NCBI GenBank assembly: GCA_903825395.1
Contig: CAIKAF010000023.1
Location: 62,001 to 126,000, forward strand
Source of the DNA: an uncultured Flavobacteriales bacterium
GTDB taxonomy: Bacteria; Bacteroidota; Bacteroidia; CAIKAF01
Reading direction: 5' to 3'
DNA length: 64,000 bases
Made by a program: the position numbers and the translations under genes. The notes beneath the pieces are model-generated. The model made no database searches and was not told the origin of the DNA. It saw only the letters and a program-made list of their open reading frames with translations. Positions 8,165-63,849 of the stretch are shown one piece after another; position 1 is the stretch's first letter, and each line of letters begins with the position of its first letter.

Positions 8165-8222
8165 ATTGGGAGGACTTTAATTGCTTTCTGTTTCAGGACG
8201 CCAAATGCTTTTCTTGCCAGGT

Positions 8223-8364
8223 GCGGCAGGTATTGAATCCAAAATGGGCACAAGAGCCTGCTACGGCTGCTGCAGGCCAACGAGGCGTTGCGAGGATCCG
8301 CCACAGCCCACTAACAGCACAACCGCCCGGTGTGCGGCCTACCAATGAAAGCACAGCTGCCGCC
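8223..8364 (+). repeat. Covarying structured repeat, copy H (divergent)
   Basis: The most divergent of eight copies. It keeps the left block (GCGGCAGGTATTGAA), a central block reading ACGAGGCGTTGCGAGGATCC, and the right block (GAAAGCACAGCTGCCGCC), in the right order and spacing, but the intervening stems are poorly paired. It lies between two convergent genes (hldD and the glycine-rich protein). Confidence 0.65.
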
Positions 8365-8411: not shown

Positions 8412-10097
8412 TTAAGGACATGTTCGAGTGATGATTACTTGACCATGGCCAGATTGGTTTCCGATACTAGACGGATTGTTGTTGCCCACAACATAGCTAG
8501 AACCGCCGCCACCGCCCGTGGCAAGGCTGTTCCAGCGTCCACCATTCCCACCGGTATATCCACCGCCACCGCCACCGCCATCAGAGGCTCCGCCGCCACC
8601 GCCAAATCCACCCACTCCAACATACGGAGAACGACTAGAATCGAAGTTTCCGCCTAAAAATCCGTTGACTCTGGAGCGCCCCCCTTCCGTTCCAGGGTAT
8701 TGAACCCCATTCATGCCGTTTCCATTCCAACCTGCTCCCCCACCTGAATCATAATCGCCTTGCCCTATAACTTGTCCGTAACTTCCGCCCCCATTTCCGG
8801 TTATGGCAAAATAGTTATAGCTGCTGGGGCCGTTGTTGTTGTCTTGCTGGTTGGTTCCTGAGCTTTGAGATGTTGAGGCATTTCTTCCTGGTTTGCGTGT
8901 GCTGTTTCCTGCGCCGATTCCACCGCCACCGCCAGCAGCCACATACAAAACATTGCTTTGGCTGTTGTACACAAAACTGCCGCCACCACCACCGCCACCG
9001 CCGGAACTATTTGCCGATAAAGATTGGCCTCCACGTTGCCCCACAACTATGGCCAGAACCGTACCTGCCGTTAACGAAACACTACCAGAAACAATAGTAC
9101 CTTTCCCAGACTGGTTCAAATAGTCACCTTTATCTCCACCCTCGGCGCCTGCAGCCTGAATGGTATAATTTCCCGTGGCAGGCACCGTCCACAATTGCAC
9201 CCCATTCGATACAGTTACAACACCTGAACCATAGCTGGCATTGCACTGGGCCTGACTTGGGCCTGTTCGGCCGGTTTGCCCGCAATTGCTAAATGTATAG
9301 GTGGCTGGAGAACAATTGGTTACGGTCACAGAATCGGTATTTTGACTTTGGCATCCGTTGGCATCTGTAACCGTCAATTGCACAGCATAGGTACCAGTTT
9401 GAGTCCATGTAACAGAAGGGTTTTGAGCCGTAGAACTGCCCGGACTACCTGAAGGGAAAGTCCATGCGTACGTAGCGTTGGATTGATTGGCATTGAATTG
9501 CGCGGCATTATTAATAATGGGAGTTGCCGGCTGAACGGTAAAGCTGCTATCGGGCAAGGCTACGCTAAGGCTCAGTACAGCAGGTGCCGAAGTTCCACAA
9601 TAATTCTGGGCCGCTACGCTGATGGTTCGCAAGCCCGTCAAAGAACTTAAATTCATACGCAAGCTATCGCTGCCGGTACCAGAAATAATGGTATCGGTAG
9701 AGCCAATGGTCCAGGCATAGGAAGTAGCACCGGATACCGTAGCAATGGAAAACAGCAAACCCGTATCAGCAGGACAGGCCACTGTAGGGCCCGAAATTGA
9801 GCTTGGACTGTTGGGTGCACTGTTGCAATCGCATTGCAAAGCTTTCCAACCTCCTGGAAAATAGCCCTCAACGCATTCGTTGTCGGTATTATAAATTACC
9901 AAAGCTCTGGATGGCAATGCAATACTATTGCGCTGAGCTGTTGTGAGTCTGGGAAGCAACAACCCGGATTGGTTCGACTGCAAGTCAAGTACAGCTGAGG
10001 GATCGGGCGGATTGTTTGAGCCAATTGTCACGCCTTGGGCTGGCAGCAAAACAGGGGCAATGAATGCAAAAAGCAGCAAATAAAACGGATTTCGCAT
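8412..10097 (-). CDS. Secreted glycine-rich protein with PKD-like domain
   Basis: 561 residues from the ATG at 10097; a TTG at 10109 would only lengthen the signal peptide. After the signal (about 1-21) comes the DPSAVLDLQSNQSGLLLPRL module common at the N-terminus of Bacteroidota surface and fibre-like proteins. Ig/PKD-like stretches follow (for example ATYAWTFPSGSPG). The last 250 residues are a glycine-rich domain of the PF12810 type with many GGGGG runs. That domain and its lead-in closely resemble the fourth glycine-rich module of the giant protein at 22.5-29.3 kb. No T9SS sorting domain is present: the protein ends in VIITRTCP. The function is unknown; an adhesive or matrix role is a guess. 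Confidence 0.75.
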   Translation of the reverse strand: MRNPFYLLLFAFIAPVLLPAQGVTIGSNNPPDPSAVLDLQSNQSGLLLPRLTTAQRNSIALPSRALVIYNTDNECVEGYFPGGWKALQCDCNSAPNSPSSISGPTVACPADTGLLFSIATVSGATSYAWTIGSTDTIISGTGSDSLRMNLSSLTGLRTISVAAQNYCGTSAPAVLSLSVALPDSSFTVQPATPIINNAAQFNANQSNATYAWTFPSGSPGSSTAQNPSVTWTQTGTYAVQLTVTDANGCQSQNTDSVTVTNCSPATYTFSNCGQTGRTGPSQAQCNASYGSGVVTVSNGVQLWTVPATGNYTIQAAGAEGGDKGDYLNQSGKGTIVSGSVSLTAGTVLAIVVGQRGGQSLSANSSGGGGGGGGSFVYNSQSNVLYVAAGGGGGIGAGNSTRKPGRNASTSQSSGTNQQDNNNGPSSYNYFAITGNGGGSYGQVIGQGDYDSGGGAGWNGNGMNGVQYPGTEGGRSRVNGFLGGNFDSSRSPYVGVGGFGGGGGASDGGGGGGGYTGGNGGRWNSLATGGGGGSSYVVGNNNPSSIGNQSGHGQVIITRTCP

Positions 10098-10133
10098 GAG
10101 TTTAGGCAAGAGTGTAATGGGTTTTTATCCAAA

Positions 10134-10172: not shown

Positions 10173-10316
10173 GGGCGGCTTATCCGGCTTTTGGCTGTAG
10201 TGGTCGGCGGCAAGGCCGGTGCTTGCTTGGCCCTGCGTGGGCTCCCAAGGTCGCCTCCGCGGGCCGGCAAGCACAGGGCCTTGCCTTGCCCACTGCCGCC
10301 GCAATCCGGGCCGCGG
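10173..10316 (-). repeat. Covarying structured repeat, copy G
   Basis: Read on the minus strand it carries the central block GCGGAGGCGACCTTGGGAGC unchanged. The flanking arms GGCAAGGCAAGGCCCTGTGC and its partner GCACCGGCCTTGCC pair with each other. The end blocks are altered: CCGGATTGC for GGGATTGAA and GCCAAAAGCCGG for GTGAAAGCCCGG. It sits between two divergent genes and occupies most of the 350-base gap. Confidence 0.75.
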
Positions 10317-15591: not shown

Positions 15592-15664
15592 AAAAGGCTT
15601 ATTTTCTTGCCTGTATTTGTTTGGTTTTAGGTCAACCTCAAGTCATTATAGAACTTGATTGGCC

Positions 15665-15806
15665 GCGGCAGGGATTGAACGGGGTAGCCCGCTAAGGTGG
15701 CGGAGCCTGGCCCGCGTGGCGCGGAGGCGACCTTGGGAGCCACCGCAAGCCCGCTGGGCCAGCCTTCCGCCAACTGCGGACTACCCGTGAAAGCCCGTTC
15801 GCCGCC
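15665..15806 (+). repeat. Covarying structured repeat, copy A
   Basis: Left block GCGGCAGGGATTGAA, central block GGAGGCGACCTTGGGAGCC, right block GTGAAAGCCCGTTCGCCGCC. Between left and centre, GGTAGCCCGC pairs with GCGGACTACC on the far side; inside it GGCGGAGCCTGGCCCGCG pairs with CGCTGGGCCAGCCTTCCGCC. Relative to copy B the inner stem base changes from TGCCG/CGGCA to GGCGG/CCGCC with pairing kept. It lies between ilvE and the 15.9-kb operon and fills most of a 304-base gap. Confidence 0.9.
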
Positions 15807-15871
15807 CCAAAAAAACAGCATTTTCAATTCAGTGTCAAAAAATAAATCCCCCAAGCTAGCCTTGCACTGCG

Positions 15872-15879
15872 TATCTTTG
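15872..15879 (+). promoter_or_regulatory. Candidate -7 box TATCTTTG
   Basis: A perfect TAnnTTTG match 24 bases before the ATG at 15896. It probably serves the three-gene operon ending in truA. No clear -33 element. Confidence 0.5.
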
Positions 15880-15895
15880 TGCAAAGAACTTGACC

Positions 15896-16297
15896 ATGAG
15901 CGCAACATTGCAGGAAGAAATTGAAGGATTACAGCGGGACATTGCTCAGTATCTGTCCATTGCCCTCAGCTGCCTGAACTTCGAACTCAGTCAGCAGGGC
16001 GAAAAGCATATTCTGCGGCTAATCACCACCAATCCGCGGCACCAGCAGTCCTTTCTTTACCATACAGTAGAAGGTTTTGGCGAGCTGGACACCATGCACA
16101 AAATGCTGGCCTATGTAAAAGCCAAGCGCCCGGAAAAGTCAACCTATACCATACAATGGAGTTTGCGCGAGGAAAAAGAACTGCACACCTCATACTTTCG
16201 TGGCAAAGACCTTTATGAAGTTTTAGATAAATTCTATTATGGCAAAGACATCAATGCCACCATCATTTTTTCCGTTTCACTCAATCCTATTGCCTGA
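15896..16297 (+). CDS. Conserved hypothetical protein, soluble, unknown function
   Basis: 133 residues from the ATG at 15896; the TTG at 15890 is less likely. No signal peptide and no membrane segment. The sequence is mixed alpha/beta with a helical N-terminus (LQEEIEGLQRDIAQYL) and basic and aromatic residues towards the C-terminus (YEVLDKFYYGKDINATII). I do not recognise a family. Its stop overlaps the thioesterase start by one base, so the two are translationally coupled and probably work in the same pathway or are simply co-expressed. Confidence 0.7.
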   Translation: MSATLQEEIEGLQRDIAQYLSIALSCLNFELSQQGEKHILRLITTNPRHQQSFLYHTVEGFGELDTMHKMLAYVKAKRPEKSTYTIQWSLREEKELHTSYFRGKDLYEVLDKFYYGKDINATIIFSVSLNPIA

Positions 16298-16713
16298 TGT
16301 TCCGTCATAAAGCTCAGATACAAATTCGATTTTGCGATACCGATATGCTGGGGCATGTCAACAATGCCAACTACCTGTCGTACATGGAAATGGCGCGTGT
16401 AAGCTATTTCAATGAAGTCATGCCCAAGCTCGACTGGTCAGGTCAGGGAATTATTTTGGCCAAAGCCGAAATCAGCTATAAGGCTCCCCTGTTCTTAGAA
16501 GACAACTTGTTTATTTACACCGGTGTAGAGCAGATTTCGGGAAAAAGCTTCATGATGCGGTACCGGTTTATAAAAAAGACCGAGGCGGGAGAGCTGTTGG
16601 CTGCCGAAGGCAGCACCTTAATGGTGTGTTACGACTACCGTGAAAACCACAGCATTCCAGTGCCTGATTTTTGGAAAAAAGCCATTGAGTTTTACGAAGA
16701 AGGCCTTGGCTAA
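16297..16713 (+). CDS. Hotdog-fold acyl-CoA thioesterase (4HBT/YbgC-like)
   Basis: 138 residues with the 4-hydroxybenzoyl-CoA thioesterase signature: RFCDTDMLGHVNNANYLSY (residues 10-28), including the catalytic Asp15, followed by the long hotdog helix (MEMARVSYF). The family hydrolyses acyl-CoA or acyl-ACP thioesters in the cytoplasm; the chain specificity cannot be read. The start overlaps the upstream stop (TGATG) and truA begins inside its last codons, giving a tight three-gene operon. Confidence 0.85.
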   Translation: MFRHKAQIQIRFCDTDMLGHVNNANYLSYMEMARVSYFNEVMPKLDWSGQGIILAKAEISYKAPLFLEDNLFIYTGVEQISGKSFMMRYRFIKKTEAGELLAAEGSTLMVCYDYRENHSIPVPDFWKKAIEFYEEGLG

Positions 16714-17482
16714 TTCACAGCGGTATTTTTTGGAATTCGGCTACGCCGGAACCGACTTCCACGGCTGGGCTCGGCAGCCCAATGCCCAAACGGTTCAAGA
16801 GACCTTAGAATCGTGCCTGAGCACCTTGATGGGCATCCGCATTGAGGTTACGGGTGCCGGTCGTACCGATACGGGAGTGCATGCCCGCAGCATGTTTGGG
16901 CATATGGATTTACCGGCTCCGCCGGCCGACATGGAAAAAACAATCTATGCGCTCAACTCCATGTTGCCCAAATCCATTGCGGTGTATCGCATTTGGCCGG
17001 TGAAACCGGAGGCACACGCTCGATTTTCGGCCATACAAAGAAGCTATACCTACCGCTGGTTGCGGCATAAAAACCCCTTTGAAGACAGTTGGGCATGGCG
17101 CTGCCGGCGTTGGCCCGACTTTCAGGCCATGGAGCGCGTTTCGAAAAACCTGTTGGAGGTGCGTGATTTTGCGGCCTTTTGCAAAATGAATCACGATGCC
17201 AAGACCACCATTTGCACGCTGAAATCCATCGATTGGAAATGGGATTCTGAGCGGGGCGAGATGACGGTGCGGGCCGACCGATTTTTACGCAACATGGTGC
17301 GGGCCATGGTGGGCACCCTGATGGAGGTCGGCTGGGGCCGCATGAGCGAAGCCCAATTCATGGCCGTAGTGCACAGCGGCAAGCGCACCGAAGCCGGCGT
17401 CAGCGTCCCGGCACGGGGCCTCACCTTAGAAGAAATCGTATATCCGCCCGGGCTTTGGGACGGGGACTTAGCCAACTTTTGA
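16706..17482 (+). CDS. truA: tRNA pseudouridine synthase A
   Basis: 258 residues from a TTG start at 16706 that overlaps the thioesterase stop. There is no ATG between it and the conserved opening RYFLEFGYAGTDFHGW. TruA converts U38-U40 of the anticodon stem-loop to pseudouridine. The catalytic Asp lies in GAGRTDTGVHA near residue 56. Downstream motifs such as HARFSAIQRSYTYRW and DRFLRNMVRAMVGTL are typical. The alternative GTG at 16640, inside the thioesterase gene, adds 22 residues with no family support. The C-terminus is intact and is followed directly by repeat copy B. Confidence 0.92.
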   Translation: MANSQRYFLEFGYAGTDFHGWARQPNAQTVQETLESCLSTLMGIRIEVTGAGRTDTGVHARSMFGHMDLPAPPADMEKTIYALNSMLPKSIAVYRIWPVKPEAHARFSAIQRSYTYRWLRHKNPFEDSWAWRCRRWPDFQAMERVSKNLLEVRDFAAFCKMNHDAKTTICTLKSIDWKWDSERGEMTVRADRFLRNMVRAMVGTLMEVGWGRMSEAQFMAVVHSGKRTEAGVSVPARGLTLEEIVYPPGLWDGDLANF

Positions 17483-17493
17483 TTTTTTGGCTG

Positions 17494-17635
17494 GGCGGCA
17501 GCCGGGCTTTCACCGGTTGTCCGCGGTTGCCGAAAGGCTGGCCCAGCGGGCTTGCGGTGGCTCCCAAGGTCGCCTCCGCGCCACGCGGGCCAGGCTTCGG
17601 CACCCTTGCGGGCAACCGCGTTCAATCCCTGCCGC
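17494..17635 (-). repeat. Covarying structured repeat, copy B
   Basis: On the minus strand: GCGGCAGGGATTGAA, then GGTTGCCCGC pairing with GCGGACAACC, then TGCCGAAGCCTGGCCCGCG pairing with CGCTGGGCCAGCCTTTCGGC, with the same central block as copy A. TAG/CTA in copy A is TTG/CAA here, a compensatory change. It starts 12 bases after the truA stop, in the opposite orientation. Confidence 0.9.
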
Positions 17636-22498: not shown

Positions 22499-25400
22499 TC
22501 AATCCTTCACAATGCGCGTTACCAATGTTTGTCCATTGATATGAACATTCAATAGATAAATGCCGGCAGACAAGTCCATGGCTTCAGTACGCACAGGCAA
22601 ACGATGTGTTCCAACCGGCAACTGTCCAAAATCAAAGTCGCCCAACAAACGACCTGTGAGGTCACGAATATCGGCTGTAACAGCAGCACCTTGAGTAAGG
22701 GTAAAGGCCATATTGAACTCCTGACCAAATGGGTTAGGATACACTTGAACGCCCTGACCGCCATCCAATTCGGCAATGCCAAAGATGTCGTAAGCGCGAA
22801 CCGAATCGCAAGAGGTGGATTCACATCCTTCCTTCTCAACCGTTAGACACACCGTGTACCAACCTGAGTTTGCATAGGTTTTGGTTGGGTTTGGAGCGAA
22901 ACTGCTGGTTCCGTCACCGAAGGTCCAATAGAAGTTGCCACCAAACAAAGGATATACCGATGGGTTAAAGGTCAACTGGTCTATACCTACGTTGTTACTA
23001 AACCAGGTAGAAACAGGAGTAGGACGAACATTCACCGTTTGAGTGATGACATCAGAACATCCATCTGGAGTCGTTACAGTTAGCGAAACTGGGATATTTC
23101 CAGTAGTACCGAATGCATAGATTGGATTGGCAACAGTATCTGTAGCTTGACCAAAATCCCAGTTCCAGAATGCAATGTTACCGGTTGACAAATCAGTAAA
23201 CTGAAGTGAATCATACTGACACACATCGCTGGCTACAAAATTCGCCGTAGGACGAGGATAGATGGTAATTGAACTATCCAATGTGCTTACGCAACCATCG
23301 GTACTGGTTACCGTCAGAACATAATTAAAGGTTCCTTGGCTTGGGAAATTCACTACGGGTGAAGCCCCAAATACAGGATTCTGTCCGCTGATATTCCAAT
23401 TCCAAGATGCGATGGAAGGACCAGAAACGTAGGAGTTCATCGTGGTCGGATTTGGATAGCAATTGTTGATGGCCATGATGGAGTCAATCGAAGGATTGGC
23501 CCAAACTTGAACCACTTGCATCATACTGTCGGAACAACCGTCGGTGTTGGTTACTGTCAACATCGCGTTATAGATTCCTGCTTGCGCATAGGTCTCGGTT
23601 GCTGAGAATCCGTTTCCATTATTACCATTTCCGAAGTTCCAGTTGAAGGAAACCAAGGTGTTTCCGTTGCCTGGAGCAGAGGTTTGAGTAAAGGTGGTAG
23701 GATTACCTTCGCACACCGTAGGCACTGAAATTTGGTAGATAATAGGTTGAGCACCCTGAGTTACAACCACATCTTGAGAAAAATCAGGACAACCGTTGAT
23801 GTTGGTTCCTTTTACAGAATAGGTACCTGGAGTGGTAACTGTGTAGGTAGGACCAAAGGCTCCGGTAATTAGGTTTCCATTGTTGTACCAGTTGTACACA
23901 CTAGCTCCAGAGGCATTTAACACCAAGGTATTGTTGGCACAAAGCACCTGGTTGTTTGAGCCAGCCAGAGTAACCGTTGGATTGCCATACACGAAAATGA
24001 AGGCAGTATCGTAATCGGTACAGAACTGATTTGAAACCTGGTAGGTAACCGTGGCCATACCTTGACCTGCTACCGAAGGTGTAAATGCGCTAGACATTTG
24101 ATTGGTAATACCGCCACCGGCCCAGAAACCTCCAGGGCTAACATTCGACAAATACACCGTATTGCCTTGTTCACATACTTGAGCAGGAGGATTCACGAAG
24201 CTGGCATTTGGTGCTTGATTCACAACAATAGCAATGCTGTCGTTTGACGTACAGTTATTCACTGTAACGGAATAAAACACCTGAGATGTACCCGTTACGT
24301 TATTGGTAGGATCAAATGTACCCAACTGAGCATTAACAATTCCATTTCCACTAAAGGTACCACCAGGAGTATTGGGTACGAGGTTGATTGGAGCGCCGTT
24401 GGAACAAAGCAAAGATGGAGTCATCAGGCTGGCATCCGGGCTTGGATTCACCGTTAGTATAACGCTATCTCGGTCGGTACAACCTGAAGCGTTATCTACA
24501 ATAGTGTAATAAGCATAATAGGTACCTGCTCCATTGGCAGAAGGAGTAAAGAACGCTTGGGTATTGTTTCCAGTAATTCCAGTTCCAGACCATGTTCCAT
24601 TTGGATTCAGGGCCACCAAGGTATCTTGTCCGTCGTAATCGCAGTACACAGCTGCAGGGCTGGTGATGGTAGCATCAGGACCTTGAATCACGCTGATGGT
24701 AACTGAGTCGGCTCCGATGCAACCGTTGTCGTTCACTGAATAAACGAAGGTATTGGTACCGATTTGAGCTTGACCTGGATCAAAAGTTCCAAGGATGCTG
24801 TCCACGACACCGGTACCTGTCCAAACTCCACCGCCGGTTGATGGCTGAGAAGTCATTGGTCCAGTAATTACTACTCGGCCGTGGCCAAAGTTGGCATTGG
24901 CTGTGTTGCTTTGATTGGTTCCGATGTTGAAAGAGCCGCCACCGCGTGCGGTGCTAGAGCTATGGTTAAATCCACCTTGACCGCCTTCGTAGCCACCGCC
25001 ACCGCCACCGGGGTGCCAAATGGCTGCGCCGCCGCCGCCGAAGCCGCCGTGTCCGGCAAAGTTACTTTGTCCGCCTTTGCCGCCATTTTTATAGGATTTA
25101 GCATTGCCGTTGCAGGTTGAGTTTCCGTCAAAACCGCCGCCGCCGCTGTCGCAATAATCCCCAGGATTTCCGCCATTGTCGCCGTTGTTGGTGGTTTGGC
25201 CACCTTCACCGGGTTGGTTCACGTTTTGATAGGCAGCAGTCCCGCCGCCGCCACCTCCGGCAACAATCAATGCTGAAGCGGTTGAGGGGTTTGTGCCTAG
25301 GGTGACGAATGTTCCTCCTCCGCCGCCGCCGCCATGATTCCAATCATCAGATGGAAGACCACCCATTTGACCTACCATCATATTGAGGGTTTGGCCGGCT

Positions 25401-28400
25401 TGAAGTTGGAAGCTTCCGCGCATGCGGGCGCCCAAACCGCCTTGATTGTTTGAGGTAACATCTCCACCGCTGGCGCCAAAGGCCTCGATGGTATAATTTC
25501 CGGTTACAGGAACCACCCATTGTTGGATTCCACTAACAACGTTTACCACACCAAGGCCATAGGCATTATCGGCGTCAAACTGAGTTGGGCCGTTTTGTCC
25601 TGTTTTGCCTGCATTGGTAAAGGTCATGGTGCCTGTATTGTACACCAAACCTAAGTTTCCATTTACTGGAGCGTCGCTGCTGCAGAATGGGCCCATGGGA
25701 AGGACATCCACTCGAGGTGTAGGAACGATGGTAACAATTCCCATGTCGTATTTAGATGGGCAACCGTTTTGCATGTACAAGACAAACAACGTATCGGTTT
25801 GAGTAAGTACTGGAGTGGTGTAAGATGTTCCCAGACCAACAAGATTTCCGCTAAATCCGTCGAACCAGCGGTAATCGGTATTGGGTCCACCGCTCACATT
25901 GAAGGTAGTGCTACCTTGGTCGCAGAATAGGACTCCGGCGCTCACTGTTGGAGCGGGCAGGGAGTCGATATGTACTACGGCAGGAACGCGAGCGCTTTGG
26001 CAAATCAACGTTGTGTTGTAGGAAATAACCACCTCACCATGTCCGATGCGGTACCCTTGGGTATGAACGGTATTTGAAGTAATGTTTGGATCGGCATAGC
26101 TAGAGCCACCGCCACCGCCGCCGTCTCCGCCACCGCCGCCGCCGTAGTGACCACCGCCACCGCCACCGCCATTGCCATAGCAGTTATCAAAATCTCCTCC
26201 ATCACCTAGAGAACCGTATTCGCTTTGGTTGTTGCAACCGCATTGCGAAGCTTGTCCACCGGCTGAGGGCGATGCGCCAAAACCACAATGGCAGGAATTT
26301 TGGGAGCCACAACGGATTCCATTGCCAGCATTTCCACTTCCACCGCCGTCTCCACCATAATCATTGTTGCCACAAGCCCAACCGGCACCGCCGCCAGCAC
26401 CTGCGCTAAGAATTCGGTCTTGAAGGGTAATTCCGCCCAAACGAATATCCGTACCGCCGCCGCCGCCGCCGCTGTTGCCACCGCCGTTGCCGCCGCCGTT
26501 CCAACCACCCGTGGTTGCACTAGGCTTTTCACCTACATATATATTTAAAATTTGGCCGGGAGTAACACTTAGGGTAGTTTGAACGCGTCCGCCCTTTCCT
26601 CCAAGATTTTGAGATGGGTTAGAAACTGCAGATCCACCTTCAGCTCCAGACATATCTACACTCACCGAAGTTACACCTGCGGGTACTGTCCAAGTTTGAG
26701 CAGAACCGGTAAACGAGAACGTGTGCGTTCCCGAAAGGGTGTTGGTGCGAGCAGAAGTTGCAAACAGTGTATCAGAGCCATACATTGCGGGTAAGAAGAC
26801 ACTAGAACCAATGGCAATTGGTGTATTGTTGGTCAAATTGGGGTACCAGTGTACGGGAGTATTTGCAGGTGTGGCAGATACCACGGCTGTTTGTCCACAC
26901 AAAACACTATCTCCAATAACGTTGGTAGGTGCCGCGAGAGGAGAAACGTTTACGTTCACTGCTACGCGTTGGCTTTGGCAATAAGGAACTGTGTACGAAA
27001 TACTAAGTTCTCCATCTCCACTTTGACTGCCTTGGGTGTGAGTTACATTCGAACAAAGGTTGGCATCGGCATAGGATGAGCCGCCGCCACCGCCGCCGCC
27101 ACTCCAGCAACCCGTACCGCCACCGCCACCGTACCAGCCGCCGCCGCCGCCGCCGGCATAGGCACAGCCATAGGCATCGCCTCCGATTCCGAATGCGCCA
27201 TTTTGACCTGTATTGCAGCAATTGCCTGCTTGACCGCCAGCGGTCTGAGATCCGCCAGTGCCGGTGTAGCAATCCTGGCTGTTGCAACGGTATCCTTGTT
27301 GCCCGGTGGTTCCACCTCCGGCTCCACCCCGTTCGCTATTGCACCATGATCCGCCGCCGCCGCCGCCACCGGCAACAATCACTCTATTGTTTAGATTTTG
27401 GCCACCAATGCGAAGGTCAGTTCCTCCACCGCCACCAGCGCTTTGACAGAAGCTGTTGCATGAAACTGTTCCTCCTTGTCCACCTCCATTCCAACCTGCA
27501 TTGGGAGTAGTTGTTGTGCCTCCAATATTAATGTAAAGTGTTTGGCCAGGTGTAACTGCCAAACTTGCTTGTACGCGACCTCCATTGCCACCGGTTGAAC
27601 CGCTGTTGCAAGAGGGGGTTCCACCTTGGGCGCCCTTAGCATCTACCACCACGCTGTAAACGCCTGCAGGAACTACCCAAGTTTGGGTACCGCCGGTATA
27701 GGAGAAATTCACTGTGCCACCTGGGTTTGCAGTAGAAAGGGCTTCTACCCAAACTGTCATGCTATCGGTTACAAAAGGAATGCTGTAGTTGGCTGAATTG
27801 CCTTGAAGCAGAGTACCTCCGGTTGAGGCGCTATACCAGTTAAAGAAACCAGTTCCTGTGGCCTGTAGCAAGGCTGTGTCTCCGCAGGTTAAATTGGCAG
27901 CAGCTACCGTAGGATTTGGAATAGGAGTGGTAGCTACTTGAACTGGAACACGAGCGCTAGTGCAGTAAGGAGTCACGTAATTAATAACAATTTGGCCATT
28001 TCCGGATTGGAAGCCTTGTGTGTGGACCACGCTGCTTGATGAGTTGGGATTAGCGTAGCTGGAACCGCCGCCGCCGCCGCCCATGTTGTAGCCGCCGCCG
28101 CCGCCATAGTAGCCGCCGCCGCCGCCGCCGGATGGGTAAGGGCAGCAATAGTTTTGATATGCCCCCCAGGCATTACCGCCTTGAGCTAAAGAGCCATTTT
28201 GACCACTACCGCACTGAGCACCTTGGCCGCCTGCATTTTGGCTACCACCTGCTCCGACGTAGCAAAGGTCATTGCTGCTGCAACGCCATCCGGATTGACC
28301 GGTTAATCCTCCACCATTGCCACCCCGATCTTGGTCTCCGTTGCAGGCTTGACCACCTGCTCCGCCGCCGCCGCCAGCAACAACAACTCGGTTATTGGTA

Positions 28401-29278
28401 CCTGTACCACCGATACGAATATCTGAAGCGCCACCGCCGCCGCGGGCTTGGTCGCCATTGTAATAGGAATAACCCGCGCCACCGCCGTTCCATCCACCTG
28501 CTGCGGTGATGTAGTTGCAACATCCACCGCTTCCGGGTTGTTGACCTACGTAGAAATACACAGTTTGACCTGGAGTAACAGCAAGCTTACCGGTTACCCG
28601 TCCGCCAGTTCCGCCGGTATTCCAAGTATTGGAACCACCTTGAGCGCCACGCACGTCGAAATCAATGCTAAAAACACCCGCAGGCACAGTCCAAGATTGC
28701 TGACCTCCGGTATAATTGAAGGTGGCTGATTGAATTGGGTTTGCCGTGCTAGACGCTTCAACATAAAAAATAGTGGTTTGAGTAACTGACGCGGTGAAGG
28801 AACCTCCAGTGCCTAGGATGGGTCCGCCGCTAGGGCCAGCATACCAAAAATAATTGCCGGTAGAACCAGCAGCATAAATGGTAGCTGAAGCTCCGCAGGT
28901 TACCGTTGCTCCTTGTACAGAAGGCGAGGCGAGCGGAGTGGGATTAACAATCAGAGCCACCCTTGAACTTTGGCAGGCTTGGTTTCCGGATTGATATGCA
29001 GCCACATAATAGGTTGTGTTTCCATATAAAACAGGAGTGGTAAAACTATTGCCTTGAGTTAGTGCAGTACCGCCTACGGGCACATTAAACCACAGGTAGT
29101 TGCCTGTTGATCCACTGGCAGTGAGGGTGGCTGTTTGTCCGCAATTGGCCGACTGCACTGCAGCCGTAGGGGATGCCGGAGGGTTAACGCATTGGGCGTT
29201 GCCCTGACCAAGAGTAGCCCACCCTAGTAGGGAAAGGAAACTGACTCGAGCGAAGTGTTTGAGTACGTGTGTAAACAT
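22499..29278 (-). CDS. Giant T9SS surface protein with four glycine-rich modules nested in Ig-like repeats
   Basis: 2,259 residues. A signal peptide (about 1-28) leads into Ig-like domains of about 80 residues (CGQTATLTASGSTGNYLWF type). Four glycine-rich PF12810-like modules lie at roughly 183-438, 520-764, 848-1091 and 1214-1471. Each of the first three is preceded by TVPAG/VVPAG and is inserted between two halves of an Ig-like domain (FYVEAS before, YCTSARVPV after). Further repeats with GTGIV and TFDP motifs and four or more PKD domains follow (from about 1850, CEGNPTTFTQT, WNFGNG). A type A T9SS sorting domain begins VQVYPNPFG near 2174. Expected location: cell surface, possibly as an adhesin or matrix protein. 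The exact function is unknown. Confidence 0.85.
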   Translation of the reverse strand: MFTHVLKHFARVSFLSLLGWATLGQGNAQCVNPPASPTAAVQSANCGQTATLTASGSTGNYLWFNVPVGGTALTQGNSFTTPVLYGNTTYYVAAYQSGNQACQSSRVALIVNPTPLASPSVQGATVTCGASATIYAAGSTGNYFWYAGPSGGPILGTGGSFTASVTQTTIFYVEASSTANPIQSATFNYTGGQQSWTVPAGVFSIDFDVRGAQGGSNTWNTGGTGGRVTGKLAVTPGQTVYFYVGQQPGSGGCCNYITAAGGWNGGGAGYSYYNGDQARGGGGASDIRIGGTGTNNRVVVAGGGGGAGGQACNGDQDRGGNGGGLTGQSGWRCSSNDLCYVGAGGSQNAGGQGAQCGSGQNGSLAQGGNAWGAYQNYCCPYPSGGGGGGYYGGGGGYNMGGGGGGSSYANPNSSSSVVHTQGFQSGNGQIVINYVTPYCTSARVPVQVATTPIPNPTVAAANLTCGDTALLQATGTGFFNWYSASTGGTLLQGNSANYSIPFVTDSMTVWVEALSTANPGGTVNFSYTGGTQTWVVPAGVYSVVVDAKGAQGGTPSCNSGSTGGNGGRVQASLAVTPGQTLYINIGGTTTTPNAGWNGGGQGGTVSCNSFCQSAGGGGGTDLRIGGQNLNNRVIVAGGGGGGGSWCNSERGGAGGGTTGQQGYRCNSQDCYTGTGGSQTAGGQAGNCCNTGQNGAFGIGGDAYGCAYAGGGGGGWYGGGGGTGCWSGGGGGGGSSYADANLCSNVTHTQGSQSGDGELSISYTVPYCQSQRVAVNVNVSPLAAPTNVIGDSVLCGQTAVVSATPANTPVHWYPNLTNNTPIAIGSSVFLPAMYGSDTLFATSARTNTLSGTHTFSFTGSAQTWTVPAGVTSVSVDMSGAEGGSAVSNPSQNLGGKGGRVQTTLSVTPGQILNIYVGEKPSATTGGWNGGGNGGGNSGGGGGGTDIRLGGITLQDRILSAGAGGGAGWACGNNDYGGDGGGSGNAGNGIRCGSQNSCHCGFGASPSAGGQASQCGCNNQSEYGSLGDGGDFDNCYGNGGGGGGGHYGGGGGGDGGGGGGSSYADPNITSNTVHTQGYRIGHGEVVISYNTTLICQSARVPAVVHIDSLPAPTVSAGVLFCDQGSTTFNVSGGPNTDYRWFDGFSGNLVGLGTSYTTPVLTQTDTLFVLYMQNGCPSKYDMGIVTIVPTPRVDVLPMGPFCSSDAPVNGNLGLVYNTGTMTFTNAGKTGQNGPTQFDADNAYGLGVVNVVSGIQQWVVPVTGNYTIEAFGASGGDVTSNNQGGLGARMRGSFQLQAGQTLNMMVGQMGGLPSDDWNHGGGGGGGTFVTLGTNPSTASALIVAGGGGGGTAAYQNVNQPGEGGQTTNNGDNGGNPGDYCDSGGGGFDGNSTCNGNAKSYKNGGKGGQSNFAGHGGFGGGGAAIWHPGGGGGGYEGGQGGFNHSSSTARGGGSFNIGTNQSNTANANFGHGRVVITGPMTSQPSTGGGVWTGTGVVDSILGTFDPGQAQIGTNTFVYSVNDNGCIGADSVTISVIQGPDATITSPAAVYCDYDGQDTLVALNPNGTWSGTGITGNNTQAFFTPSANGAGTYYAYYTIVDNASGCTDRDSVILTVNPSPDASLMTPSLLCSNGAPINLVPNTPGGTFSGNGIVNAQLGTFDPTNNVTGTSQVFYSVTVNNCTSNDSIAIVVNQAPNASFVNPPAQVCEQGNTVYLSNVSPGGFWAGGGITNQMSSAFTPSVAGQGMATVTYQVSNQFCTDYDTAFIFVYGNPTVTLAGSNNQVLCANNTLVLNASGASVYNWYNNGNLITGAFGPTYTVTTPGTYSVKGTNINGCPDFSQDVVVTQGAQPIIYQISVPTVCEGNPTTFTQTSAPGNGNTLVSFNWNFGNGNNGNGFSATETYAQAGIYNAMLTVTNTDGCSDSMMQVVQVWANPSIDSIMAINNCYPNPTTMNSYVSGPSIASWNWNISGQNPVFGASPVVNFPSQGTFNYVLTVTSTDGCVSTLDSSITIYPRPTANFVASDVCQYDSLQFTDLSTGNIAFWNWDFGQATDTVANPIYAFGTTGNIPVSLTVTTPDGCSDVITQTVNVRPTPVSTWFSNNVGIDQLTFNPSVYPLFGGNFYWTFGDGTSSFAPNPTKTYANSGWYTVCLTVEKEGCESTSCDSVRAYDIFGIAELDGGQGVQVYPNPFGQEFNMAFTLTQGAAVTADIRDLTGRLLGDFDFGQLPVGTHRLPVRTEAMDLSAGIYLLNVHINGQTLVTRIVKD

Positions 29279-29825
29279 CAGAAATGCTTTGGGGTTATAA
29301 CTTTGAGGATAAAGGTAAAATTATTTCTTTGCCAACACCCAAAAGCGATTCAATTTTTAACAGCATCTGATGAAAGATTCCCTCACATTACATGTTTGGT
29401 TTACATTGCCTTAAACCATTTTTAATCTGCAAGGCCATTGGTCAAAATCAGGCCTTGCGGCAGGGATTGAAGCAGCTAGCGCGCAAACCGGGAAGCCGGT
29501 TGGAGTTGGGGCAAAGGAGCGACGCGAGGAGCTACCTTTGGCCCTACTCCAACCGGCTTCTCGGTGCGTACTAGCGCTGAAAGCCCGCAGCCGCCCTAAA
29601 AAATGGTATCAATTTCTCAACTAAGAATATAGAGCTACTCGCTCAGATTCAATGCAAGATTTTGGCATTGTTTGTCTGTTAATCTTTTAAGAGATGACGT
29701 AAAAAATTAAATTTATCACTTTATTTGCATAGGCACTTAAATGCCTGATTGGTATTATGTTCACCAAACCAACCTATAACCTAGTTGCAGTATCGACTCG
29801 AATTAAAGTCCATGTGGGGCTAGGT
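29279..29825. other. Divergent intergenic region holding repeat copy C
   Basis: A 547-base gap between the giant protein gene (minus) and the T9SS cargo gene (plus). Apart from repeat copy C (29457-29595), it is AT-rich with no ORF I would support. The promoters must lie here, but I find only one-mismatch boxes, such as TACCTTTA on the minus strand near 29310. The in-frame ATG at 29757 gives no signal peptide and is not used. Confidence 0.5.
29457..29595 (+). repeat. Covarying structured repeat, copy C
   Basis: GCGGCAGGGATTGAA, then AGCTAGCGCGC pairing with GCGTACTAGCGCT. The long arm ACCGGGAAGCCGGTTGGAGT pairs with ACTCCAACCGGCTTCTCGGT, and the central block reads GGAGCGACGCGAGGAGCTACC. The long arm is unrelated in sequence to those of copies A, B and D but is almost perfectly complementary. 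Confidence 0.9.
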
Positions 29826-34444: not shown

Positions 34445-34479
34445 TCCAATGTTTTTTTTGGGGGGATTAGGGGCCTTCT

Positions 34480-34611
34480 CCGGCTTTCAGCTGTAGCCCG
34501 CTCACAAGGTCAAACAAAGGTTTGCCGTGCGTAGGGCTCCCAAGGTCGCCTCCGCCGTCTACCTTTGGATTGCCCTTGAATCGCGTTCTGCCGCTTCAAT
34601 CCGGGGCCGGC
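34480..34611 (-). repeat. Covarying structured repeat, copy F (end blocks degraded)
   Basis: On the minus strand the central block GGCGGAGGCGACCTTGGGAG is intact. The ends are reduced to CCGGATTGAAGCGGCAG and AGCTGAAAGCCGG. The long arms (AAGGGCAATCCAAAGGTAGA and GGCAAACCTTTGTTTGACCT) still pair in part. It begins 35 bases after the small lipoprotein stop and directly abuts inverted-repeat copy 1. Confidence 0.75.
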
Positions 34612-34644: not shown

Positions 34645-35090
34645 TTTCCCGGGAAAGGGCCCGGAGAAAGATGTTAAGTTGAGTTTTGTCCAATGCCGAA
34701 GCATCCGAACCAATACCTTGGCTGGATGTAAGCCTACATTTATCCAATAAAAGCGAGAGTTTTCAACCAAAGGACTACCCCTCCATCCTACTCTCCTTTG
34801 TTTTCCTCCCCGTATAAAAAGGCTGATATGCCACACCAACCCAGTCTCATACCCGAGATTCCCGCCTTCCAATTCAACAAAGAAAACGATGTTGTTTCAG
34901 AAGGCATTTCTGAGACGCCCCAATGAATTAGGTCAAGCGTTTCCGCCGAACCAAAATTCAAAAACAGACTTCACATCAAAAACAAACCCGAAGTGTTCTT
35001 CGCCACCCCAATATGTGACGAAGCAAAAAAGAACGTTTCACCAGTGAACTACGAAGATACCGAACTTATTTTGGGTTGTCAAGGGCAAAT
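34645..35090 (-). repeat. 450-bp dispersed repeat, copy 1 (inverted relative to 54.2 kb), with its own promoter
   Basis: 446 bases which, on the minus strand, align along their whole length with 54171-54634. The promoter-proximal 240 bases are almost identical; the distal part has substitutions and small indels. The minus-strand start carries TTGACA (35082-35077) and TATCTTCG (35059-35052) with a 20-base spacer, followed by the hairpin TTCAC-TG-GTGAA and by CGAAG-AACA-CTTCG. A distal hairpin is CCGGG-CCCTTT-CCCGG. No frame is kept open in both copies, so I treat it as non-coding or a decayed gene. Confidence 0.8.
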
Positions 35091-35198
35091 CCGACTTTTT
35101 TCTGAATAATCAAATTCAATTTGAGTTAAAGCTGTTCAAATAAACTTAACCTGATAAACACAAAAAGCCAATTCGGAGGTTCAATTCGAAGGTTTGTT

Positions 35199-44371: not shown

Positions 44372-44458
44372 AGGTTTAAAGTTACATGGTACGTATCTTT
44401 TTTGCAAGTCTGTTGGCAGGCCGTTTGATTTCGAGTGGCCAAATGGACCGAGAGGCCT

Positions 44459-44600
44459 GCGGCAGGGATTGACGAGGCTACCCCGCAAGGGGCAAAACGG
44501 CTGCCGGCGCTTGCCTGGCGGAGCGACGTGAGGAGCTACCGCCGGGCAAGCGCCGGCCCGTTTTGGACCGCGGAGTAGCCCGGAAAGCCCGGCTGCCGCC
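44459..44600 (+). repeat. Covarying structured repeat, copy D
   Basis: GCGGCAGGGATTGA, then GGCTACCCCGC pairing with GCGGAGTAGCC. The arms CAAAACGG and CCGTTTTG pair, GCCGGCGCTTGCC pairs with GGCAAGCGCCGGC, and the central block is GGAGCGACGTGAGGAGCTACC. The right end is GGAAAGCCCGGCTGCCGCCC. It lies between divergent genes and fills much of a 370-base gap. Confidence 0.9.
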
Positions 44601-53951: not shown

Positions 53952-54170
53952 GGGTTTAATCTCGGAAAGTAGAAGCAATTCTTTGTATTTTCCTCCAAGT
54001 TCAACAAAATCCATTATCTAAACAGATTTTCGAGCTCGTATTATGCTTGATGTTAATCTCTTTACCAAAACTAAACCACCGCCAAACCAACACTTACTTG
54101 GACCTCTAAAAAATCCTTTTAAGGACAAAGCACTGAAAACATATCGTCCCTTTTTTGTCAAAAAAATCAA

Positions 54171-54634
54171 ATTTGCCCTTGACAAGGCGAAAAAAGTTCG
54201 GTATCTTCGTAGTTCACTGGTGAAACGTTCTTTTTTGCTTCGTCACATATTGGGGTGGCGAAGAACACTTCGGGTTTGTTTTTGATGTGAAGTCTGTTTT
54301 TGAATTTTGGTTCGGCGGAAACGCTTGGCCTAATTCATTGGGGCGTCTCAGAAATGCCTTCTAAAACAACAAGGCTTTCTTTGTTGAATTGGAAGGCGGG
54401 AATCTCGGGTATGAGACTGGGTTGGTGTGGCATATCAGCCTTTTTTATGCGGGGAGGAAAAAAGGAAGGAGAGAGGAGAGTGGTGGTTGAATCCTTTGAT
54501 TGGAAATTCTCGCTTGTAATGGATAAATGCAGCCTGGCATTCAGGTTTACATCCAGCCAAGGTATTGGTTTGGATGCATCGGTATTGGACAAAACTCAAC
54601 AAAATCATTTTCTCCGGGCCCTTTCTCGGGAAAA
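54171..54634 (+). repeat. 450-bp dispersed repeat, copy 2, with its own promoter
   Basis: 464 bases matching the reverse complement of 34645-35090. The TTG at 54179-54181 and TATCTTCG at 54202-54209 (spacer 20) are identical in both copies although the spacer bases differ. Downstream are the same two hairpins, TTCAC-TG-GTGAA and CGAAG-AACA-CTTCG. The distal hairpin is CCGGG/CTCGG here against CCGGG/CCCGG in copy 1, still pairing by a G-U. The sequence from 53952 to 54170 contains nothing I can support. Confidence 0.8.
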
Positions 54635-63576: not shown

Positions 63577-63716
63577 GGCGGCAGCCGGGCTTTCACAGGT
63601 AGTCCGCCACGGGCAGCGGGGCAGCAGCGGGCTGTGGTGGCTCCTAAAGTCGCCTCCTCGCCGCGCGCCGCCAGCCGCTGCCCTGTGTACGGGCTACCTA
63701 GTTCAATCCCTGCCGC
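63577..63716 (-). repeat. Covarying structured repeat, copy E
   Basis: On the minus strand: GCGGCAGGGATTGAA, GGTAGCCCG pairing with CGGACTACC, and the arm CAGGGCAGCGGCTGGCGG partly pairing with the CGCTGCTGCCCCGCTGCCCG side. The central block is GAGGAGGCGACTTTAGGAGC, and the right end GTGAAAGCCCGGCTGCCGCC is identical to that of copy B. It begins 13 bases after the waaA stop. Confidence 0.88.
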
Positions 63717-63849
63717 AAGCGCCCTCAGTTAAAAAACCAATTCATAACTCAACCGCAGCCCCAAAAGCCTAAAACAAAGCAAAAGTTCTTAACTTGCGCT
63801 TAACAAACTGACCTGTGAACCCAAACTCATGCCACACATACGTTTAATA

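Follow-up and report, generated by a model that had tools for sequence, protein, structure and literature searches.

A large family of covarying intergenic hairpins, related to Flavo-1 and retained in place, in a Bacteroidota genus

The 64,000-nucleotide stretch of DNA from an uncultured Flavobacteriales bacterium analysed here (the window) carries eight copies of what sequence comparison identifies as a large family of covarying intergenic hairpins, vertically retained, related to Rfam Flavo-1, subject to exchange of internal modules and following an orientation rule. With moderate confidence, we read the element as a vertically inherited DNA hairpin under selection, dispersed along the chromosome and probably a long-armed branch of the Flavo-1 superfamily.

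A first-pass annotation of the window had described eight copies on given strands at about one per 8 kb. A covariance model (R1), trained on 15 copies, five of them from the window, was built and searched in the bacterium's own genome and in its relatives. It recovered all eight copies on the strands described, with E-values from 2e-26 to 5e-5 (the decayed 8222 copy) and scores from 138.7 bits (17494) down to 36 bits (8222), and its matches occur at one per 8.8 kb. The copies are as follows, with R1 scores in brackets.

8222..8364, + strand: copy 1, decayed, GCGGCAGGTATTGAA...AATGAAAGCACAGCTGCCGCC, with poorly paired arms (36 bits)
10174..10315, - strand: copy 2, divergent ends (GCGGCCCGGATTG) and an intact core, GGAGGCGACCTTGGGAGCC (62.5 bits)
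15664..15806, + strand: copy 3, full length (136 bits)
15723..15741, + strand: GGAG-GC-GAC-CTTG-GGA-GCC, the apical motif within copy 3, where a stem holding facing GA/GA mismatches ends in a 4-base loop
17494..17636, - strand: copy 4, full length (138.7 bits)
29456..29595, + strand: copy 5, full length, in the gap of a divergent gene pair (122.3 bits)
34470..34610, - strand: copy 6, with a CCGG-type outer stem (50.4 bits)
44458..44600, + strand: copy 7 (118.5 bits)
63577..63717, - strand: copy 8, full length (138.5 bits)

The element is a single long imperfect hairpin of ~143 bases, in which Watson-Crick arms, free in sequence, link three fixed modules. Module 1 comprises the element ends (GCGGC-A-GGG-ATTGAA / GAAAG-CCC-GNYN-GCCGC) and runs, from the outside in, through a GCGGC/GCCGC stem, an A/GNYN loop, a GGG/CCC stem and a near-invariant internal loop, ATTGAA/GAAAG. 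The terminal stem varies with pairing kept (GCGGC/GCCGC, GCGCC/GGCGC, GGCCC/GGGCC and CCGG-type). Module 2 is a stem with a conserved C-A mismatch (TAG-C-CCGC-AA / GCGG-A-CTA), and module 3, the apical one (GGAG-GC-GAC-NNNN-GGA-GCC), combines facing GA/GA mismatches with a 4-base loop that reads CTTG, TTTA, TTCA, GTTA, GTGA or GCGA among copies. The left block, initially regarded as fixed, is exact in four of the eight window copies; it is one base off in 8222 and 44458 and more heavily altered in 10174 (to GCGGCCCGGATTG) and 34470 (to CCGGCCCCGGATTGAA). All copies had been called intergenic, and indeed none of the eight overlaps a gene, nor does any of 75 elements in four genomes overlap a called gene; copy 2 lies between a divergent gene pair.

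Other repeats were seen alongside the element. A rare variant of the element has short arms and an added side hairpin (GGGATTGCAGTGGAAATGCCCGCAGGGCATTG.AGCGGAAAGCCCGGTGCCGG..CCGGCAC); it is present at L289:1440-1590, L288, L287, L291 and L293, with one copy in G000, one in G007 and three in G005. A second dispersed repeat of ~460 bp occurs inverted at window positions 34645-35101 and 54160-54633 (89% identical), with weaker copies at L034, L033, L004 and G005/G009 loci; one copy adjoins element 34470. Large minus-strand ORFs at 8412-10109 and 22499-29278, full of CCGCCACCGCC triplet runs and encoding very Gly-rich proteins, are a source of the window's strongest plain repeats.

The stem differences first noticed by eye are present in the sequence (TAG/CTA to TTG/CAA, GGCGG/CCGCC to TGCCG/CGGCA, and CAAAACGG/CCGTTTTG in the 44458 copy), and covariation across the family stands far above both shuffled and slid-partner controls. 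Bacteroidota-wide, 581 alignment cells had changed on both sides and were still paired, compared with 188.5 +/- 11.7 after shuffling (none of 500 shuffles reached 581) and 60-158 with slid partners. The genus alone (77 distinct rows) gave 552 such cells against 147 shuffled and 65-151 slid. Model-made alignments are biased towards structure; the covariation result is nevertheless safe because the slid controls and an independent arm-to-arm alignment agree. With regard to template-switch repair as the sole source of pairing, the stem changes at 96% identity were few, and all were single, none double.

The core GGAGGCGACNNNNGGAGCC was found 191 times, with at most one mismatch, in the 2.6-Mb genome (93 and 98 on the two strands), whereas the reversed control pattern did not occur there. 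Over 570 kb of this genome R1 matched 65 times, which extrapolates to ~300 copies per genome. Every genome of the genus contains the element, with at least 143-150 copies each in G000, G005, G007 and G009 and a divergent subfamily of at least 131-137 copies, detected with a broader model of the family (R2), in G006 and G008. Distribution in the rest of the family is patchy: at least 138 copies in G004 (against 0-5 in its congeners), 20 in G012, 5 in G001 and G002, 2 in G011 and none in four genomes. Full-length relatives were also found in Draconibacterium, Maribellus, another Prolixibacteraceae MAG, Bacteroidales S147_9 and Bacteroidetes 4572_114. Such patchiness, which looks like amplification within particular lineages and implies that the element must be mobile to some degree, counts against the reading as a vertically inherited hairpin. 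A candidate 36-nt "mini element" in G023 (GGGATTGNAN{0,28}GAAAGCCC) was rejected, as it is the 5' half of full-length G006-like copies.

Nothing relevant to the left block came up in the literature. Rfam Flavo-1 (RF01705) had been proposed as a possible catalogued family, which holds for relatives of the element and not for the window copies themselves. At the Flavo-1 gathering score (42 bits) no window copy matched, relaxing the limit to E up to 10 for two of them brought no match either, and the bacterium's own genome had none at E<=0.001; the window copies thus represent a divergent long-armed variant and not a Flavo-1 member by the Rfam cut-off. At L196, by contrast, Flavo-1 matched exactly over the element (32.1 bits), and thirteen further relatives matched over all 76 model positions at 24.5-37.7 bits, below the gathering score; full-length matches at 24-38 bits came from S147_9, G001, G004 and G012. 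In the reverse direction, R2 matched six Rfam Flavo-1 loci (L402, L403, L404, L406, L408 and L410; E 1.8e-7 to 5e-4). The link is visible only through intermediate relatives and is missed by a search of the window alone. This two-way evidence (GATTGNAGYGGAAANCC ... GAYTGNARCGNAWAGC) indicates that the element and Flavo-1 share descent. Flavo-1 is the nearest known family. The two have the same modules in the same order between outer GC stems (GAUUGNAGYGGAAANCC ... GAUUGNARCGNAUAGC), a covarying free arm and many copies in each Bacteroidota genome that carries them (Weinberg 2010, PMC2864571), but Flavo-1 is ~75-100 nt with an AT-rich arm, whereas the element reaches ~143 nt, its arms are long and GC-rich, and it adds a C-A mismatch module and a fixed apical motif. 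Of 238 Bacteroidota genomes sampled, 36 contain Flavo-1, and one genus has it in many copies.

Most copies are inherited in place. When compared with G007, whose flanks are ~96% identical, all 12 testable sites carried the element in both genomes. Ten intact pairs showed ~10 differences over 1425 bases (~0.7%) compared with ~3.7% in the flanks, so intact copies change ~5x more slowly than their surroundings, although gene conversion could also be the cause. Copy 2 is identical in G007, and decayed copy 1 differs from its counterpart at 16 positions (0-3 for intact copies). At the distance of G005 and G009 (genes 70-80% identical), nine of the ten sites with both flanks syntenic were occupied, mostly in the same orientation. 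Copy 4 (17494) occupies the same place and orientation in both and is 95-97% identical within surrounding intergenic DNA that cannot be aligned; the position of copy 6 is conserved in both, and that of copy 5 is conserved with drifted arms that retain pairing. In 14 of 23 comparisons, the positional orthologue was the best match by its outer modules. The outer thirds of the 44458 copy have hardly changed across three species and the G005 inner arm is wholly different, so inner modules are exchanged.

Alternatively, the element may be selfish: a non-autonomous mobile sequence that does nothing for its host, is moved by some enzyme other than those found and persists through slow decay and gene conversion. 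This would account for copy numbers from 0 to hundreds among relatives, for the survival of a decayed copy (8222) and for turnover at individual slots. Unrelated copies have re-occupied slots 8222, 10174 and 63577 in the opposite orientation, because their flipped counterparts show no special similarity (as for the oppositely oriented occupant of the 63577 slot in G005/G009), and neither G005 nor G009 has an element at the site C23:128131. That sole empty site is too diverged to read a target duplication, and none was seen. The absence of any insertion difference among the 12 sites at ~96% identity and the slower divergence of intact copies than of flanks argue against selfishness, as does the lack of the element in 72,556 plasmid and 50,697 phage records. 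One viral contig gave a weak pattern match of 20 bits. We consider this account unlikely, though worth serious attention.

Several rearrangements lie at or near elements. Synteny breakpoints relative to G005/G009 coincide with elements G000:C23:22330, G000:C23:41693 and copy 3 (window 15664; both genomes), and a gene between copies 8222 and 10174 is inverted relative to G009; the element repeats seem to mediate rearrangements. Between G000 and G007, genes have been gained or lost near elements at L029:1585-2359 versus L048 and at L134:3554-4486 versus L002, involving a methyltransferase-like ORF and a 933-bp stretch. The integron-like idea of element-bounded gene cassettes was rejected at these loci, since the borders are not at the element (~40 bp off in L134).

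Orientation of the elements is not independent of distance. In the window, the eight copies alternate perfectly (+-+-+-+-), and more widely the strand switches from one element to the next in 44 of 62 cases in G000 and in 29 of 35 cases in G009. Among neighbours less than 6 kb apart in four genomes, 5 were direct and 55 inverted, with the same trend in each genome, whereas at 12 kb or more there were 25 of each. Loss of the intervening DNA through recombination between close direct pairs would most simply explain their scarcity. Elements separated by <250 bp form six pairs, listed below, and in every one the GCGGCAGGG ends face each other.

G000:C23:150709/150936
G000:C20:11988/12181
G009:C56:13059/13252
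G009:C31:145760/145960
G009:C34:18207/18453
G009:C31:13401/13789

Compared with random placement between genes, elements were spaced more evenly in G000 (P <0.001) and G006 (P 0.007), and the difference did not reach significance in G005 or G009; strict even spacing was therefore rejected as a general rule, and the mixed result counts against the DNA-hairpin reading.

The first-pass annotation had left open whether the family is a structured RNA or a cruciform, and a cruciform or single-stranded DNA hairpin fits better. An arm-to-arm alignment of the main subfamily that treats mismatches alike gave 27 G-T and 17 A-C isolated pairs against 4590 Watson-Crick pairs, and most arm changes are direct switches between Watson-Crick pairs. 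In model alignments of the same subfamily (helices pairing >=80%), G-U made up 0.83% and A-C 0.6-1.5% of cells, compared with 8.05% G-U and no A-C in 18 tRNAs of the same loci. Overall, wobbles in the main subfamily arms (about 0.6-0.8%) are far rarer than in known RNAs, given the 8% in tRNAs. Elsewhere, G-T outnumbered A-C by 16 to 4 in the G006/G008 group and by 9 to 2 in distant relatives, with 1 against 4 in Rfam Flavo-1 loci. The pooled excess (53 versus 27, about 2:1) suggests that one strand folds, which is compatible with single-stranded DNA or RNA; together with the 16 to 4 ratio in G006/G008, it counts against the DNA-hairpin reading to the extent that the folding strand could be RNA.

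Position relative to genes gives a similar picture. The 156 elements examined by gap type lay in 83 tandem, 41 convergent and 32 divergent gaps (background gaps, 321/110/134). Divergent gene pairs are occupied about as often as expected, so divergent promoter regions are not avoided, and in tandem gaps 39 elements were on the gene strand and 44 opposite, with no strand preference. In the Flavobacterium psychrophilum transcriptome, Flavo-1 matches have no consistent strand or transcript, lie sense and antisense alike, and are often outside transcribed regions (PMC9723704). The current Rfam view of Flavo-1, by which the + strand would be transcribed and its RNA fold selected, draws on homology of the element with that family, on internal loops that resemble RNA modules (facing GA/GA mismatches and 4-base loops including GTGA and GCGA) and on the excess of G-U over A-C. 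Set against the scarcity of wobbles and the indifference to gene strand, we regard an RNA as improbable.

REP elements mobilised by REP-associated tyrosine transposases (RAYTs) had also been named as candidates, and a search for RAYT/Y1 genes makes this very improbable: RAYTs are present in five of the six genomes of the genus, and in three cases the element lies 160-450 bp upstream of the RAYT gene in the same orientation, but G005, with its at least 150 copies, lacks any RAYT or Y1_Tnp protein, Y1_Tnp is likewise unmatched in G004 despite at least 138 copies there, the RAYT genes carry their own, distinct short GAGACGCA..TGCGTCTC repeat, and the element is 143 bp long compared with 20-40 for REP. 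A short palindromic family, GAGACGCANNNNTGCGTCTC, lies beside RAYT genes at L010:1468-2250 (G000:C5), L048:1310-1440 (G007) and L320:1050-1160 (G009), is GTAG-tagged in L320 and looks like the true REP of these RAYTs. The RAYT genes at L320:1501-2230 and L325:1477-2470 contain in-frame tandem repeats (VVETQYFASP..KSDRSDN; MVDSGATARGALTTVGGIV) between conserved transposase blocks.

Other known repeats share parts of this architecture. ERIC/IRU sequences of enterobacteria are intergenic imperfect palindromes of ~127 bp that occur in both orientations, usually in fewer copies, and are sometimes positionally shared between related species; they are not known to have a mobiliser. They belong to a different phylum, and the likeness noted here is one of architecture. 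The attC sites of integrons are long imperfect hairpins with conserved structure whose unpaired bases serve in their recognition as single-stranded DNA, but the element lies outside cassette arrays at one per ~9 kb, and aligned copies have no GTTRRRY-type ends. Like the element, REP/BIME sequences (PMC3733652) are intergenic palindromes with hundreds of copies and inverted pairs; unlike it, they carry a GTAG tag and have a cognate RAYT, and neither a GTAG nor a CGTC tag was found at the ends of aligned element copies.

Returning to the reading of the element as a selected DNA hairpin, we infer that selection acts on folded DNA, either an extruded cruciform or a lagging-strand hairpin. More weakly, we suggest that a putative chromosomal protein would bind the hairpin by reading its fixed mismatched modules. 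This would most likely serve local DNA topology or the organisation of the nucleoid, as proposed for E. coli BIME/REP, for which links to gyrase and nucleoid proteins have been suggested. Most copies are inherited in place, with occasional loss, re-occupation of slots and exchange of inner arms, and close direct pairs would be lost by recombination that deletes the DNA in between.

Flavo-1 has been a computed RNA motif since 2010 (PMC2864571) and is tabulated in a review among the sRNA families with the highest abundance (PMC9029176). What is new here is the rarity of wobbles, the indifference to strand, the retention of sites, the slow change, the inner-arm swaps and the inverted orientation of close neighbours. 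It is possible, and we propose it tentatively, that the Flavo-1 superfamily as a whole is a chromosome-organising DNA hairpin and not an RNA, present here at ~1 per 9 kb, long held in place and inverted when close, and that in Bacteroidota it serves as a landmark for DNA topology or the nucleoid. Should the hairpin act as DNA, the Rfam family would need to be re-filed, and counts of Bacteroidota "sRNAs" would be inflated. Hundreds of hairpins that drift in sequence, stay paired and keep their sites also offer, in an abundant phylum, a natural set for testing old questions of cruciform formation, hairpin stability and chromosome domains.
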